Shown piece after piece: positions 55,319-62,748 of a stretch of 64,000 nt of DNA. Location: assembly GCA_011523705.1 (NCBI GenBank), contig WTGC01000140.1, positions 110,667 through 174,666 of the forward strand, read 5' to 3'. Below the pieces are notes generated by a model. It was not told the DNA's origin. It was given only the letters and a program-made list of their open reading frames with translations, and did not search any database. Numbering within the stretch: position 1 is the first letter of the stretch; each line of letters begins with the position of its first letter. Source of the DNA: Chloroflexota bacterium. GTDB taxonomy: Bacteria > Chloroflexota > Anaerolineae > Aggregatilineales > Phototrophicaceae. The position numbers and the translations under genes were made by a program.

Positions 55319-56185
55319 ATGGACAGCGTCATCGACAACGAAGTTCGATACAGTATTGAACGGGCGCTAAATCGTAACGTTCGCTCCTGGCAACCGCTTG
55401 CGGGCGGCATGATCAGCCAGGTGCTGCGCGTTGAGCTGGCGGACGGCCAATCAATCGTCGCCAAAGTCGGCGATGGCAGTCACGATCTGACGATTGAAGC
55501 CTATATGCTGCGATACTTGCGCCAGCATTCGGGATTGCCGGCGCCGGCAGTGCTGCATGATGAAGCAAACCTGCTCTTGATGGAATTCGTAGAAGGTCGC
55601 ATTGAGTGGGAAGGCGATGCCCTGCGTCATCTCGGTGAGCTCTTGGCTCGTTGCCACCAAGTGACCAGCCCTGCCTACGGCCTCGAACGCGACACGCTGA
55701 TCGGACCATTGCATCAGCCAAATCCGCGGACAGCCTCATGGATCGCCTTCTTTCGCCAACAGCGGCTGCTCTACATGATCGGCATCGCGCGCGAATCGGG
55801 CGAGCTTCCCGCCGAGCTTGAGCGGCGGCTCCTGCGCATCGCCGATCAACTGGAGCGATATCTCTTTGAACCGCCGCAACCCGCGCTTATCCATGGCGAC
55901 ATGTGGAAAACCAACGTGATCGTACGGGATGGTCGGGTGGCGGGAATCATCGATCCAGCGCTCTATTACGGGCACAATGAAATGGAACTCGCCTATATGA
56001 CCCTCTTCAACGGCACCGGTCCCGAGTTTTTCAGCACCTACACCGAGCAGATTGCAATTGAGGAAGACTTCTTCCGCACCAGACGCCACATTTACAATCT
56101 GTATCCACTTCTGATTCATCTCGTCATCTTCGGCGAAAGATACCTTCAGCCACTGCACGAATCGCTGGAACGAGTAGGAAAATAG
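55319..56185 (+). CDS. Fructosamine kinase family protein
   Basis: PALIHGDMWKTNVIVRDGRVAGIIDPALYYGHNEMELAYMTLF. Confidence 0.85.
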   Translation: MDSVIDNEVRYSIERALNRNVRSWQPLAGGMISQVLRVELADGQSIVAKVGDGSHDLTIEAYMLRYLRQHSGLPAPAVLHDEANLLLMEFVEGRIEWEGDALRHLGELLARCHQVTSPAYGLERDTLIGPLHQPNPRTASWIAFFRQQRLLYMIGIARESGELPAELERRLLRIADQLERYLFEPPQPALIHGDMWKTNVIVRDGRVAGIIDPALYYGHNEMELAYMTLFNGTGPEFFSTYTEQIAIEEDFFRTRRHIYNLYPLLIHLVIFGERYLQPLHESLERVGK

Positions 56186-56297
56186 TTAGGATGGGGTTTG
56201 TAATGTTTACATATTCGTACCATTTGATTATGGTTTATACTCGATGCAAGCGTTAGAGTATTCGTTTGAATCGATAGCGACAAGCAGGGCAAATGCG

Positions 56298-56357
56298 ATG
56301 AACGCGATCGGCGGCGCAGTCGAGAGCAAGAAGGTGAAGAAGACCGACACCCACTGA
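56298..56357 (+). CDS. Putative lysine leader peptide MNAIGGAVESKKVKKTDTH*
   Basis: 19-codon ORF with AAG AAG GTG AAG AAG, AGGG SD-like element 8 nt upstream, followed by antiterminator/terminator arms and lysW. Confidence 0.82.
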   Translation: MNAIGGAVESKKVKKTDTH

Positions 56358-56421
56358 GTATGGGCTTGTTTGTGCTGCTAGATGACCTAAGACACACACC
56401 CGCCCATACGGCGGGTTTTTT
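56358..56421 (+). promoter_or_regulatory. Attenuator: mutually exclusive antiterminator and terminator upstream of lysW
   Basis: Antiterminator GTATGGGC (56358-56365) pairs perfectly with GCCCATAC (56402-56409). Terminator ACCCGCC (56398-56404)-CATAC-GGCGGGT (56410-56416) then TTTTT. Confidence 0.85.
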
Positions 56422-56453
56422 CGTTGTGAGTAGATGACTGAGGAGAATTGACG

Positions 56454-56630
56454 ATGACCAGTGCAAGCCCGCTATGCCCCGAATGCGAAGGCGAGGTCGA
56501 TATTCCAGCCGACGCGATGGAGAACGAGTTGGTGTCTTGCCCCGAGTGCGGCACAGAACTTGAGATTATGAGCCTTGACCCGATGGAGCTGGAATTGGCG
56601 CCCGAAGTGGAAGAAGACTGGGGAGAGTAG
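56454..56630 (+). CDS. lysW: Amino-group carrier protein LysW
   Basis: MTSASPLCPECEGEVDIPADAMENELVSCPECGTELEIMSLDPMELELAPEVEEDWGE; CxxC pairs and C-terminal EDWGE; SD GAGGAG 8 nt upstream. Confidence 0.93.
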   Translation: MTSASPLCPECEGEVDIPADAMENELVSCPECGTELEIMSLDPMELELAPEVEEDWGE

Positions 56631-56635
56631 ATCTC

Positions 56636-57514
56636 ATGCGCGTCGCCCTGCTGGTCACGCATATTCGCGCCGAAGAAAAGCTGATTCTGGCCGCCTTCAA
56701 CAAGCGCGATATCAGCCCGGACATCATCCTCGACCGCGAGTTGAATTTCGAAATCACGCAGGGCGCTGGTCAGTTGGCGCCATCGGGCATCGCCTGGCGC
56801 GATTACGATATGATATTTGAACGCTGCGTCAGCACATCGCGCGGCATGTACGCGCTGGCGATTCTCAACAGCTGGGGCGTCCAAACCTTCAACACTTATG
56901 AAACAGCGGCCGCCTGCAGTGACAAGCTGCGAACAAGCGTCGCCTTGATGCAGCATAATATTCCGCAGCCGCATACGCGCGTCGCCTTCACGCCGGAGAG
57001 CGCGATGCAGGCGATCGAAGACGTCAAATATCCAGCGGTGCTGAAACCGGTGACCGGCTCCTGGGGGCGCCTGCTGGCGCGCGTCCACAATCGAGACAAC
57101 GCCGAAGCCATCCTCGAACACCGGCAGACCCTGGGCGATTACAATCATCACATTTATTACGTGCAGGAATATGTCGACAAGCCGGGACGCGACATCCGCG
57201 CTTTTGTCGTCGGCGATCGCACCATCGCGGCCATCTACCGCGAGTCCAATCACTGGATCACTAATACCGCCCGCGGCGGATTGGCCACAAATTGCCCGGT
57301 GACCGAGCCGCTTGACGATATTTGCGTGCGCGCGGCGCAGGCCGTCGGCGGCGGCATACTGGCGGTCGATCTGCTGGAAGACGCAGGCGGCAACTTCGTG
57401 GTCAACGAGATCAACCACACGATGGAATTCCGCAACAGCAGCAAACCCACCGGCGTCGATATCGCGCAGGAAGTCATTGACTTCGTCATCGGGCAGATTG
57501 GAGTGGTCGCGTGA
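56636..57514 (+). CDS. lysX: Alpha-aminoadipate--LysW ligase LysX
   Basis: ATP-grasp family; VNEINHTMEFRNS; adjacent to lysW. Confidence 0.9.
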   Translation: MRVALLVTHIRAEEKLILAAFNKRDISPDIILDRELNFEITQGAGQLAPSGIAWRDYDMIFERCVSTSRGMYALAILNSWGVQTFNTYETAAACSDKLRTSVALMQHNIPQPHTRVAFTPESAMQAIEDVKYPAVLKPVTGSWGRLLARVHNRDNAEAILEHRQTLGDYNHHIYYVQEYVDKPGRDIRAFVVGDRTIAAIYRESNHWITNTARGGLATNCPVTEPLDDICVRAAQAVGGGILAVDLLEDAGGNFVVNEINHTMEFRNSSKPTGVDIAQEVIDFVIGQIGVVA

Positions 57515-58536
57515 TTCGGGCGGGCATCGTCGGCGGCAGCGGCTATACCGGTGGCGAGCTGCTGCGACTGCTGCACTTTCACCCACAGGTTGAAGTGACG
57601 CAGATCACCAGCCGCGAACAGGCGGGGCGCTATGTGCATGCCGTGCATCCGAACCTGCGCAGCGTCTCCCGCTTCAAGTTCATTCACCCCGATGCGCTGG
57701 AAGAGTGCGATCTGCTTTTTCTGGCGCTGCCTCACGGGACGGCCGCGCGCCATATCGAGCGCTATGCCGGTCTCGCGCCGAAACTAATCGACCTGTCGGC
57801 CGATTTCCGCCTCGATTGCGCCGCCACCTACGAAAAGTATTACGGTGAGCCGCATCCGGCGCCGCGCTGGCTGTACCGCTTCGTCTATGGCTTGCCCGAG
57901 GTCAATCGCGAATCGCTTCTTGGCGCCAGCTATGTCAGCGGGGTTGGCTGCAATGCGACCGCGTTGAATCTCGCGCTGCTTCCGCTAGTCCAGGCCGGCA
58001 TCCTCGAGCGCGCTGCCTGCGAGATCAAGGTCGGCTCATCGGAAGGCGGCAACAAGAGCAATCCCGGCTCGCATCATCCCATTCGCAGCGGCGCCGTTCG
58101 CAGCTACAAAGCCACCGGACATCGACATCTGGCGGAAGCGCAGTTGGTGCTGGGCGAAGATATCCCGCTTCACTTCTCGGTTACAGCAATTGAGATGGTG
58201 CGCGGCATTCATCTGCTGGCGCATTGCTACTTGAGCGAGCCAAAGGTCGAACGCGACATCTGGCGGCTCTATCGCGGGCGCTATCGGCACGAGCCCTTCC
58301 TGCGTCTGGTGAGCGGCAAGGCGGGCTTGCATCGCCTGCCCGAACCGCGCGTGGTCGCCGGCACGAATTACTGCGACATCGGCTTCGAGCTGGACGGCGA
58401 TGGGACACACCTTGTCGTCATCGCCGCGCTGGACAATCTAGGCAAGGGCGCGGCCGGCAGCGCCGTGCAAGCGATGAATCTGATGTATGAACTGGATGAG
58501 CCGACCGGGCTGGAGTTTCCCGGCATTTACCCCTAG
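57511..58536 (+). CDS. lysY: LysW-aminoadipyl phosphate reductase (ArgC paralog)
   Basis: RAGIVGGSGYTGGELLRLL; SGVGCNATALNLALLPL; cluster context. Confidence 0.9.
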   Translation: MIRAGIVGGSGYTGGELLRLLHFHPQVEVTQITSREQAGRYVHAVHPNLRSVSRFKFIHPDALEECDLLFLALPHGTAARHIERYAGLAPKLIDLSADFRLDCAATYEKYYGEPHPAPRWLYRFVYGLPEVNRESLLGASYVSGVGCNATALNLALLPLVQAGILERAACEIKVGSSEGGNKSNPGSHHPIRSGAVRSYKATGHRHLAEAQLVLGEDIPLHFSVTAIEMVRGIHLLAHCYLSEPKVERDIWRLYRGRYRHEPFLRLVSGKAGLHRLPEPRVVAGTNYCDIGFELDGDGTHLVVIAALDNLGKGAAGSAVQAMNLMYELDEPTGLEFPGIYP

Positions 58537-58550
58537 CGAGAAGCGGGAAA

Positions 58551-59360
58551 ATGGCTGTATCAAAACTCTTGATTGTTAAGTTGGGTGGCGGAGAAGGCTT
58601 GGATCTGGCGGCCGCCTGTGATGATTTGGCATTGATCGCCGAGAGGCGCCCGCTTGCCGTCGTGCACGGCGTCAGCGCGATCATGAATCAGCTTTGCCTG
58701 GAAAGCGGTGTCGAAGTGCAATCATTGCAATCGCCATCCGGACACAGCTCCCGTTATACCCCGCCGGCCGTGCGCGACATCTACGTCCGCGCCGCGGAAG
58801 CAGCCAATGAGTTGCTGGTATCGGCATTGCGTGAGCGGGGCTTGAGCGCGGTCGGATTCATCGGCGAAAATCTGGCGCTGGCGGGCACGCGCAAAACGGC
58901 GATACGAGCCCTTGTGAACGGACGCGTACGCGTGATCCGCGATGACCACAGCGGCTCGATTGTCGGCGTTGATGAAGCGATACTCCTTCAAACGCTGGAC
59001 GCCGCCAAAACACCGGTTCTGCCACCGATGGCGCGCAGCAGCGATGGTCCGCTCAATGTCGATGGCGATCGCGCTGCTGCGGCTGTAGCCGGCGCGCTGG
59101 ACGCCGAGACGCTCGTTATCCTAAGCAATGTCGCTGGGCTCTACCGGCGTTTTCCCGATGAAACTTCCATAGTCAATCTGGTAACCCTTTCGCAGATCGA
59201 CGGGGCGCTGGATTGGGCGCAAGGTCGCATGAAACGAAAAGTATTGGCAGCGCGGGAGGCGCTGGCTCAGGGACTTGGGCGCGTCATCATTGCTGATGGA
59301 CGTATTTCCAATCCGGTGTCGCGCGCGCTGGACGGAGCTGGCACGAGGTTTACCACATGA
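58551..59360 (+). CDS. lysZ: LysW-aminoadipate kinase (ArgB paralog)
   Basis: Amino acid kinase family (LLIVKLGGGEGLDLAA); cluster context. Confidence 0.9.
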   Translation: MAVSKLLIVKLGGGEGLDLAAACDDLALIAERRPLAVVHGVSAIMNQLCLESGVEVQSLQSPSGHSSRYTPPAVRDIYVRAAEAANELLVSALRERGLSAVGFIGENLALAGTRKTAIRALVNGRVRVIRDDHSGSIVGVDEAILLQTLDAAKTPVLPPMARSSDGPLNVDGDRAAAAVAGALDAETLVILSNVAGLYRRFPDETSIVNLVTLSQIDGALDWAQGRMKRKVLAAREALAQGLGRVIIADGRISNPVSRALDGAGTRFTT

Positions 59361-60523
59361 TGGAGACAGCGAATCTTTTCGAATTGGAGAATCGGCACGG
59401 ATCGGGCGCTTATGGCAAGCGACCAACGGCTTTGGTACGTGGCGAGGGCGTCTATGCCTTTGATCAGTTGGGCAATCGCTATCTGGACGCGACCAGCGGC
59501 CAGGGCGTGGCGGCGCTTGGCCATTGCCACCCGGCCGTCATCAAGGCGATTAGCGAACAGGCGGCGACTCTGATCACCTGCCACGAGTCATTCTACAACG
59601 ATCGCCGCGCCGAGCTCTATCAGTTGCTGGCAAGTATCATGCCGGCGGATCTCAAGCGCTTCTTCCTCTGTAACAGCGGCGCCGAAGCCAACGAGGGCGC
59701 GCTAAAAGTGGCCAAGCTGCTCACCGGGCGCGATGGCATCGTCGCGGCGAAGCGCTCCTTCCATGGTCGTACCACCGGCGCTCTCTCCTTGACCTGGACG
59801 CAGAAATATCGCAAGCCCTTTCAGGAATGGCTGCCCGCTGTCGATTATGTCGCCTTCAACGACATTCAAGCGGCGCGCGATGCAATTACCGACGCGACCG
59901 CAGCCGTCGTCGTCGAGGCGATCCAAGGCGAAGGCGGCGTGCACCCGGCCGATGACGAATACCTGGGTGCGCTGCGAGAGCGCTGCGATCAAAAGGGCGC
60001 CATGCTGATAATCGATGAGATACAGACTGGCTTTGGCCGAACGGGCAATTGGTTTGCATTCGAGCATGCCGGCATCGTCCCTGACATCATATCGGTCGGC
60101 AAAGCGATCGCCGGAGGCCTGCCCATGGGCGCCGTTTGCTGGCGCGACGCGCACGGACCGATTGACCGCGCCACCCATGGCAGCACCTTTGGCGGCAATC
60201 CGCTCGCTTGCGCCGCCGCTCTCGCCGCGGTCGCCGCGATCCGCGATGAGGGCTTGGTCGAAAGGGCGCGAGTCAACGGCGAGTGGTTCATTGATGAATT
60301 ATCCGCGCTGAAACTGCCCGGTGTGCGCCAAGTGCGCGGACGAGGACTGATGATCGGCCTTGAGCTGAGAGGTCGAGTGACACCCATTCTAAAGGCGCTG
60401 CAGGAACAGGGTGTGCTCGCCCTGCCCGCCGGACTCAATACGCTGCGCTTGCTGCCGCCTTTGATCATCAGTCGCGAGCAGCTTTCTGTTGTCGCCAGCG
60501 CAATCGAGGCGGTATTGGGATAG
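59357..60523 (+). CDS. lysJ: LysW-aminoadipate semialdehyde/ornithine aminotransferase (ArgD paralog)
   Basis: Class III aminotransferase NSGAEANEGALKVAKL, MLIIDEIQTGFGRTG; cluster context. Confidence 0.9.
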   Translation: MMETANLFELENRHGSGAYGKRPTALVRGEGVYAFDQLGNRYLDATSGQGVAALGHCHPAVIKAISEQAATLITCHESFYNDRRAELYQLLASIMPADLKRFFLCNSGAEANEGALKVAKLLTGRDGIVAAKRSFHGRTTGALSLTWTQKYRKPFQEWLPAVDYVAFNDIQAARDAITDATAAVVVEAIQGEGGVHPADDEYLGALRERCDQKGAMLIIDEIQTGFGRTGNWFAFEHAGIVPDIISVGKAIAGGLPMGAVCWRDAHGPIDRATHGSTFGGNPLACAAALAAVAAIRDEGLVERARVNGEWFIDELSALKLPGVRQVRGRGLMIGLELRGRVTPILKALQEQGVLALPAGLNTLRLLPPLIISREQLSVVASAIEAVLG

Positions 60524-60526
60524 CTG

Positions 60527-61579
60527 ATGAGCCTCTTATCCAATGGCAGCGCGGAGAAACTGCTGCATGATTTGGTCGCCATTCCCAGCCCGTCTTTCGC
60601 TGAAACTGAGGCGGCCGCCTATTTGACCGCGTGGATGGAGCGTCACGGCTATGATGACGCCTTCTTCGATGAGGCTGGCAACGCGGTCGGCGTCATCGGG
60701 TCCGGCGCCCGCCAGATCGTTTTGCTCGGGCATATCGATACCTTCGCCGGCTTTCCACCGGTTCGCTTGGATGGGCGAAGACTTTTTGGACGCGGCGCCG
60801 TCGATGCCAAGGGACCGCTGTGCGCATTCGCGGCGGCGGGGGCAAGAGCCAAGCTGGCGGCGGACGCGCAAGTCATCGTCATTGGCGCGGTGGAAGAAGA
60901 AGCGGCCACCAGTCACGGCGCCCACTATGCTCTGACCCAATATCAGCCAGCCTGCTGCGTAATCGGCGAGCCATCGCGGTGGGATCGCATCACCTTGGGC
61001 TACAAGGGGCGCCTCCTGCTCGACTGGCGCTGGGAAGGCGGCCTCGCGCATAGCGCTGGGGAAGCGCCCAGCCCGGCCGAACGCGCCTTGGATTATTGGC
61101 AGGGCATCAAAACGTATTGCGAAGAATTCAATGCTGGCATCGGGTCGCTATATGCAAGGCTGGACCCCTCAGTCCGCGATATCAATACCTGGCAGGAAGA
61201 CGTCAACGGCGTCGCCGAGATGACCGTGGGCTTCCGCCTGCCGCCAAATGTCATCCCTGACGACATCCGACTTCAATTTCCCGCGAGCAATGGCGCGACC
61301 GTAAGCGGGCGCGGCGCCGAATGCGCCTTCAGCGGCGACAAGAACAGCGCGCTCAGCCGTCATTTCCGGCGAGCCATCCGCGCTCAGGGCGGCGTCCCGC
61401 GCTTCGTTTACAAAACCGGCACATCCGATATGAACATCGTCGGGCCGCGCTGGGGCTGCCCGATCGTGGCATATGGACCGGGCGATTCCGCGCTCGACCA
61501 TACGCCGGACGAGCATATTCACCTTGACGAATATCTGCGCGCAATCGACGTCTTAACACAAGCACTCGAGACCGTCTGA
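60527..61579 (+). CDS. lysK: LysW-lysine hydrolase (M20 family)
   Basis: VLLGHIDTFAG; GRGAVDAKGPLCAF; cluster context. Confidence 0.88.
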   Translation: MSLLSNGSAEKLLHDLVAIPSPSFAETEAAAYLTAWMERHGYDDAFFDEAGNAVGVIGSGARQIVLLGHIDTFAGFPPVRLDGRRLFGRGAVDAKGPLCAFAAAGARAKLAADAQVIVIGAVEEEAATSHGAHYALTQYQPACCVIGEPSRWDRITLGYKGRLLLDWRWEGGLAHSAGEAPSPAERALDYWQGIKTYCEEFNAGIGSLYARLDPSVRDINTWQEDVNGVAEMTVGFRLPPNVIPDDIRLQFPASNGATVSGRGAECAFSGDKNSALSRHFRRAIRAQGGVPRFVYKTGTSDMNIVGPRWGCPIVAYGPGDSALDHTPDEHIHLDEYLRAIDVLTQALETV

Positions 61580-61596: not shown

Positions 61597-62748
61597 ATGC
61601 ACAATCGCAAAATACCAGTTCCTGAATTCAACTTCATTGATTCCACCTTGCGCGAAGGCGAGCAATTCCGCGGGACGCACTTTACCTTGGACGACAAGCG
61701 CGAAATCGCTGAGCTCCTGGATCAGTTTGGCGTGGAATACATGGAATTGTCCACGCCGGTGGCCAGCCCGCAAAGCGCCGATGCCATCCGCGCTTTGGCC
61801 GATATGCCGCGCCGGTTCCGGCTTTTGACGCATATCCGCGCCAATATGGATGACGCCAGGCTGGCAGTCGATTGTGGCGTTGACGGCGCTGATGTCTACA
61901 TCGGAACATCCGAATACATGCGCGAATACAGCCACGGCAAGAGCCTCGAACAAGTCATTGAAATCGGGCAAGAGGTCATCGCCTATCTGAATCAGCAAGA
62001 CATTGAGACGCGCTTCAGCACGGAGGATACCTTCCGCAGCAATTTCGCCGATGTGATGACGGTCTACCGCGCGATGGATTTGGCCGGCGTGGATCGCGTC
62101 GGGGTCGCCGATACGGTGGGCATCGCCGATCCTTTGCAAACCTACAATCTCATTTCCAATCTGCGCGATGTGGTCAACTGCGATATCGAATTTCACGGTC
62201 ATAACGACAGCAGCTGCGCCGTCGCCAACGCCTTCTGCGCCTTGCAAGCGGGCGCCACCCATATTGACACCACCGTCCTGGGCATCGGCGAGCGCAACGG
62301 CATCACGCCGATGGGCGCGCTTGTCGGCCGGCTCTACACCTGTGACAAGTCGTTAGTGGAGAAGTACCAGTTAAGTCTGCTGCCCGAAATCGAACGCGTC
62401 GTGGCGGAGAAACTGGGTATCGAGATTCCTTACAACACGCCTATCACCGGCGAGGTCGCTTTTCATCACAAAGCCGGCGTTCATACCAATGCCGTATTGA
62501 AGAACCCGACGACGTATGAAGCGATCGACCCGGAAGATTTCGGCCTGCCGCGCATCATTGATATCGCCCATCGCCTCGTGGGGCGCAACGCCATTCGCGA
62601 TTACGCCGCCGGCCACGGTATCACGCTGCCCGACGATGTGCTCAATCTGGTTACGGCTCAGGTCAAACTGATGGCGGACGAACGGCCGATCACCCTGGAA
62701 GATGTTGACGGCATCCTCAGCAAAATGATGTTGCCGGTCGACGATTAA
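61597..62748 (+). CDS. lysS: Homocitrate synthase
   Basis: NFIDSTLREGEQFRGTHFTLDDKREIAELLDQFGVEYMELSTPVASPQS; IEFHGHNDSSCAVANAF; HHKAGVHTNAVL. Confidence 0.88.
   Translation: MHNRKIPVPEFNFIDSTLREGEQFRGTHFTLDDKREIAELLDQFGVEYMELSTPVASPQSADAIRALADMPRRFRLLTHIRANMDDARLAVDCGVDGADVYIGTSEYMREYSHGKSLEQVIEIGQEVIAYLNQQDIETRFSTEDTFRSNFADVMTVYRAMDLAGVDRVGVADTVGIADPLQTYNLISNLRDVVNCDIEFHGHNDSSCAVANAFCALQAGATHIDTTVLGIGERNGITPMGALVGRLYTCDKSLVEKYQLSLLPEIERVVAEKLGIEIPYNTPITGEVAFHHKAGVHTNAVLKNPTTYEAIDPEDFGLPRIIDIAHRLVGRNAIRDYAAGHGITLPDDVLNLVTAQVKLMADERPITLEDVDGILSKMMLPVDD

Follow-up and report, generated by a model that had tools for sequence, protein, structure and literature searches.

A lysine-codon leader peptide with mutually exclusive terminator and antiterminator hairpins is a very probable transcription attenuator of the LysW lysine operon in a Chloroflexota order

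How is lysine synthesis controlled in this Chloroflexota order, in which regulation has hardly been studied? The window analyzed here, a stretch of 64,000 nucleotides from contig WTGC01000140.1 of a Chloroflexota bacterium, contains a cluster of lysine biosynthesis genes of the LysW type. The genes of the cluster were assigned by profile searches as follows.

56454..56630, + strand: lysW, amino-group carrier protein (TIGR01206, 54.8 bits; cut-off, 53.2)
56636..57514, + strand: lysX, LysW-aminoadipate ligase (TIGR02144, 319.7 bits; cut-off, 275.6)
57511..58536, + strand: lysY/argC-type reductase (TIGR01850, 347 bits)
58551..59360, + strand: lysZ, [LysW]-aminoadipate kinase (NF010659, 249.5 bits; cut-off, 223)
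59357..60523, + strand: lysJ/argD-type aminotransferase (TIGR00707, 427.5 bits, above the cut-off; best match, NF042418 LysJ)
60527..61579, + strand: lysK, [LysW]-lysine hydrolase (NF003367, 402 bits; cut-off, 363)
61597..62748, + strand: homocitrate synthase (TIGR02146, 411.7 bits, slightly below the curated cut-off of 413.55)

The presence of a homocitrate synthase and of an aminoadipate-type kinase indicates that the product of the operon is lysine, and lysine codons are therefore the regulatory codons to be expected in a leader peptide. Positions 56241 to 56421 very probably form the leader of this lysW-lysX-lysY-lysZ-lysJ-lysK-homocitrate synthase operon and act as a transcription attenuator of the classical ribosome-mediated kind, with charged tRNA-Lys as the signal. 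The relevant elements of the leader and its surroundings are the following.

56206..56234, + strand: putative sigma-70 type promoter, TTTACA-17 bp-TATGGT (consensus scan, 9/12 matches)
56298..56357, + strand: leader peptide ORF, MNAIGGAVESKKVKKTDTH and stop; 19 codons, ATG at 56298, TGA at 56355-56357 (from the sequence)
56328..56342, + strand: candidate regulatory Lys codons AAG AAG GTG AAG AAG (KKVKK), with AAG AAG at 56328-56333 and again at 56337-56342
56358..56365, + strand: segment 2, the putative antiterminator 5′ arm, GTATGGGC; abuts the stop codon, is a perfect complement of 56402-56409, and covaries with segment 3 between genera
56358..56409, + strand: extended antiterminator hairpin, an 8-bp outer stem plus an inner stem (predicted fold, about -20 kcal/mol; genus pair counts)
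56398..56421, + strand: intrinsic terminator, ACCCGCC-CATAC-GGCGGGT + T5; 7-bp stem, 5-nt loop, and U tract (independent scan)
56440..56447, + strand: lysW Shine-Dalgarno sequence, GAGGAGAA, 6 nt before the ATG at 56454 (from the sequence)

These elements agree with an earlier note on this DNA. The 19-codon Lys ORF that it had placed at 56298-56357 is present, with every base at those coordinates, as are the complementarity between GTATGGGC and GCCCATAC and the T5 hairpin at 56398-56421; the terminator was found again by an independent scan. The lysW start that it had described, 32 nt past the U tract with a Shine-Dalgarno sequence of its own, was likewise confirmed.

A classical attenuator is defined by codons for the end product in a leader peptide, by alternative terminator and antiterminator structures, and by the coupling of transcription to translation (PMC9413887). 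In the window, KKVKK lies within 19 codons before the lysine operon, and the intrinsic terminator sits between the leader ORF and the first gene. Segment 3 (GCCCATAC, 56402-56409), the perfect 8-bp complement of GTATGGGC, lies inside the terminator, so that antiterminator and terminator, which share these bases, are mutually exclusive. The predicted antiterminator pairing exceeds the 8 bp noted before, as UUGUUUGUGCUG also pairs with a CACACA stretch. When the 5′ part of the leader was masked to mimic a ribosome on the Lys codons, structure prediction yielded the antiterminator (56358-56409), and with the ribosome placed at the stop codon it yielded the terminator.

The proposed course of events starts from transcription beginning near 56241, with a ribosome that would trail the polymerase through the 19-codon leader ORF. 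With Lys-tRNA plentiful, the ribosome would reach the stop codon at 56355-56357 and cover segment 2 (56358-56365), which would leave segment 3 free to form the terminator at 56398-56421 and end transcription before lysW. With Lys-tRNA scarce, the ribosome would stall on KKVKK and end short of 56358; segment 2 could then pair with 56402-56409, no terminator would form, and the operon would be transcribed. The spacing suits both states. The last Lys codon is 15 nt from segment 2 in the window (median of 15 nt, with an interquartile range of 13 to 17, over 116 loci), and a ribosome, given the size of its footprint, ends before 56358 if it stalls with its A site on a Lys codon and covers 56358-56365 when at the stop. 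The 15-nt spacing would thus leave segment 2 free under a stalled ribosome and occupied under one at the stop codon. The transcription start, leader translation, ribosome stalling, and the lysine response are all inferred from sequence.

No stable 1:2 protector hairpin was predicted in the leader, where the only option, a 4-bp CCCA/UGGG pairing, is absent from the predicted fold; an untranslated leader would therefore be expected to read through, unlike that of E. coli trp. The CCC before the stop and the TGGG after it are invariant in the genus alignment, and this CCC could pair with the UGGG or with the GGGU of the terminator. The leader ORF, a single-copy sequence in the genome, has no strong Shine-Dalgarno sequence. 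Its ATG at 56298 is aligned across the 11 closest members of the genus; an alternative in-frame start at 56244, which would lengthen the ORF, is not kept in relatives.

Transcription probably starts near 56241, as judged from the promoter-like site upstream. At this site, most of the closest relatives have TATAGT as the -10 block and a TTG-type hexamer 16 to 17 bp upstream of it. Just past the putative start, a GATAAAGT/TTAGAGT block that may be a second -10 box is conserved between the window (56250-56259) and its relatives.

Within the genus, the lysW upstream region was matched in 33/33 other members (601-base query). The conserved blocks of the alignment are SKKxKK, the CCC of the last codons, TGGGC past the stop, and the terminator including the U tract, while the sequence before and between the leader blocks drifts. 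Of the 34 members counted, all have KKxKK apart from one T in place of K, and at 3/4 Lys positions AAA and AAG are interchanged with the amino acid unchanged, which indicates that the amino acid, and hence its decoding, is what is conserved. Among 21 members, the terminator has 100% of its cells paired and an invariant U6, and the antiterminator in register has 86.6% of its cells paired versus 18 to 53% in slid registers. Covariation inside the genus is modest, with few double changes, because the outer-stem pairs hardly vary; by itself it is unconvincing, and the strong covariation is that between genera. A stricter terminator finder reported one attenuator unit in 31/34 genus loci, two in 1, and none in 2.

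To extend the comparison to the order, lysW was located with TIGR01206 in 128/151 genomes, and a locus was scored when its lysW was preceded by a short ORF in which 3 or more of 6 codons were Lys, with a terminator within the next 150 nt. Window tiles (450 nt, both strands; n = 282), reverse complements, and shuffled sequences served as chance controls. In total, 109/129 lysW loci of the order have a Lys-cluster leader with a terminator; among the controls, mononucleotide shuffles scored 0/645 and reverse complements 2/129. A second terminator finder gave 72/91 positives among same-order loci outside the window's genus, against 0/91 reverse complements, 3/455 dinucleotide shuffles, and 0/282 window tiles. 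These locus counts include related species and are not independent events, and the automatic scans miss some units in which the Lys codons are fewer or the hairpin is imperfect. The cluster is specific for lysine: when each amino acid was tested (at least 4 of 6 codons), Lys was found at 94/125 loci, followed by Arg at 14, with all others at 14 or fewer.

Covariation was assessed by permutation with one locus per genus. Across 50 genera, segment 2 forms a duplex of -19.3 to -19.6 kcal/mol on average with the terminator 5′ arm of the locus it belongs to. Exchanging the arms at random between genera raised the mean to -13.5 kcal/mol (standard deviation, 0.41), and in five runs of 5000 permutations each, no value below -15.06 kcal/mol was reached. 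Pairs that change together include GUAUGGGC/GCCCAUAC, GUCUGGGC/GCUCAGAC, GUUCGGGC/GCCCGAAC, and ACGAGUGGU/GCCACUCGU. The conserved Lys-rich ORF, covarying pairs, and conserved terminator that the earlier note had named as checks on its proposal are thus found in the order (72/91 loci outside the genus; -19.5 versus -13.5), and the attenuation geometry that it had described is strongly supported by the Lys specificity, the conserved geometry, and the between-genera covariation of the antiterminator. Chance is excluded by the independent scan that found the terminator and by the 0/282 other window tiles with a Lys-cluster ORF and terminator, and these comparisons indicate that the lysine attenuator is real and selected.

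Farther away, the signal thins out. In other families of the class, 16/70 sampled loci pass the Lys leader and terminator criteria (0/70 reverse complements); some loci of the order and most of those sampled elsewhere in the class had no match under the automatic criteria. No Lys leader was found at lysX loci sampled from other Chloroflexota classes or at lysW/lysX of Thermomicrobium roseum (L283). A family of another class (f70; L295-L297, L303, L305, L307, L308, L310, and L312) has a conserved terminator-like hairpin before lysW, GCTCTTCGTCCTT...GAAGAGC-T5 with variants, mostly about 75 to 90 nt from the gene. This hairpin comes without a Lys leader, and Rfam gave no match at either of the two loci searched; it may represent another, unexplained control of lysW. 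Within the order, one subclade (L025, L029, L030, L033, and L034) carries about 50 nt of strongly conserved sequence (CGAGCAGCCTTACTATAGTTAGCCGCTGGCAACAGTTGCAGGAGA) between terminator and lysW, with a small hairpin adjoining the lysW Shine-Dalgarno sequence. No Trp-, His-, or branched-chain-codon leader with a terminator was found before trpE, hisG, or ilvB in the genus and order (L314-L349), so the lysine attenuator stands alone among the operons tested.

Other readings of the locus have to account for the same observations. The RNA might bind lysine itself or uncharged tRNA-Lys, as an L-box riboswitch or a Lys T-box, with the Lys-rich ORF incidental. Bacterial lysine genes are known to be controlled by either type, each of which likewise ends in a terminator, but an Rfam search of the leader returned only subthreshold noise, with neither an L-box nor a T-box match, and at ten loci of relatives no match to either reached the gathering threshold. 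The leader is about 180 nt long with the ORF included and holds no conserved aptamer; what is conserved is the Lys codons, segment 2, and the terminator, and we regard a riboswitch or T-box as very improbable. A hairpin that merely terminates the phosphotransferase-like gene at 55319-56185, with the ORF a chance frame, is just as improbable. This gene, which is encoded on the lysW strand, ends at 56185, and a terminator behind it would be unremarkable, but the terminator found lies about 210 nt past the gene and 32 nt before lysW. Furthermore, about 100 species have a Lys-codon ORF ahead of it, segment 2 covaries with the terminator arm, and a Lys leader with a terminator occurs by chance at less than 1% per locus.

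Attenuation might also be real but respond to the general translation state or to Lys and Arg jointly, or the leader might be uncoupled, with a protein or RNA factor deciding the outcome. Some leaders do end in Arg (e.g., ...KKTRTR and stop), and Arg is the second most frequent clustered residue (14/125). Against this, the tail residues vary freely but the Lys codons hardly at all, the geometry suits stalling at the Lys codons, and the homocitrate synthase in the operon makes lysine the product; this possibility is slightly less remote than the two above, but still unlikely. Attenuation through the leader peptide therefore remains the preferred reading, and it very probably controls LysW-route lysine synthesis across the order, in place of a lysine riboswitch.

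Relatives of the window often carry more than one such unit. Outside the window's genus, the second finder identified two complete units in series before lysW at 46 loci of the order, spread over 24 genera, and two units were also found at 7 loci elsewhere in the class; in the chance controls, even a single unit is found at a rate close to zero. The tandem loci fall within L053-L124 (e.g., L055, L083, L101, and L112), with the units 180 to 300 and 20 to 120 nt before lysW. Segment 2 prefers its own terminator arm in 37/46 distal and 45/46 proximal units, and both units covary (distal, own -17.4 versus permuted -11.9 ± 0.63; proximal, own -18.0 versus permuted -14.4 ± 0.59). The distal unit resembles that of the window, with a KKAKK-type leader and a stop just before segment 2; the proximal leader often ends in ...KKPxxRSG and a stop, and its last codons lie within segment 2. 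Only one unit, of the distal type, is present in the window and in its genus, except for an outlying member (L035, genome G033). This locus has two leaders, MNTQVSTSKKAKKIYTH and, nearer lysW, ...MISKTKQLKKTKQII, each with a terminator; the pairing of its second unit is weak (-7.2 kcal/mol), and the genome, at 8.5 Mb, is possibly contaminated.

It is likely, with less assurance than for the attenuator itself, that lysine attenuation is old in a large part of Anaerolineae, often as two lysine attenuators in series, and that the window's genus keeps only the distal type. If so, readthrough would require stalling twice, which would make the lysine response steeper or less leaky. The one- and two-unit leaders form a natural comparative set for the effect of serial attenuation on dose response. 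We know of no precedent for two ribosome-sensed attenuators of the same amino acid in one leader.

Lys-codon leaders are not a new kind of element at LysW-type clusters, and the novelty that the earlier note had suggested for a Lys-codon attenuator of this pathway was too strong. Tsubouchi et al. (2005, J Biol Chem) reportedly described Lys-codon leader attenuation of the aminoadipate/LysW lysine cluster of Thermus thermophilus; that leader, like the window's, is reported to combine a short Lys-codon ORF with a terminator before genes of a LysW-type lysine pathway. A plasmid of Deinococcus sp. NW-56 (L282, 5645-5746) likewise carries a Lys-codon leader, MTALATASKKPTAPPG and stop, followed by a strong terminator, upstream of an aminoadipate/LysW cluster in the order lysS(hcs)-...-lysW-lysX. 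In Deinococcus, the leader lies before homocitrate synthase, contains two Lys codons, and finishes with PPG and a stop, whereas the window's precedes lysW and has KKxKK, with the segment 2 block following its stop; first gene, peptide, and terminator all differ, and the Chloroflexota and Deinococcus leaders may have independent origins. Within the literature that could be searched, nothing relevant was found on a Chloroflexota lysine attenuator, and the Chloroflexota set appears to be undescribed there.

The L-box resembles the window's leader in that it controls lysine genes, often via a terminator, and differs in that no Rfam lysine riboswitch match was obtained for this leader or for the ten loci of relatives. 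The classical trp, his, leu, ilv, thr, and phe attenuators share the window's layout of end-product codons and alternative terminator and antiterminator; the window departs from them in its amino acid, lysine, in the lack of a clear predicted 1:2 protector hairpin, and in its Chloroflexota host. For the tandem relatives, the closest comparison is the Salmonella mgtCBR leader, which has two translated short ORFs with attenuator structures, was called a singular example, and senses ATP and proline (PMC3641672); both units of the relatives carry Lys codons, whereas the two mgtCBR signals differ.
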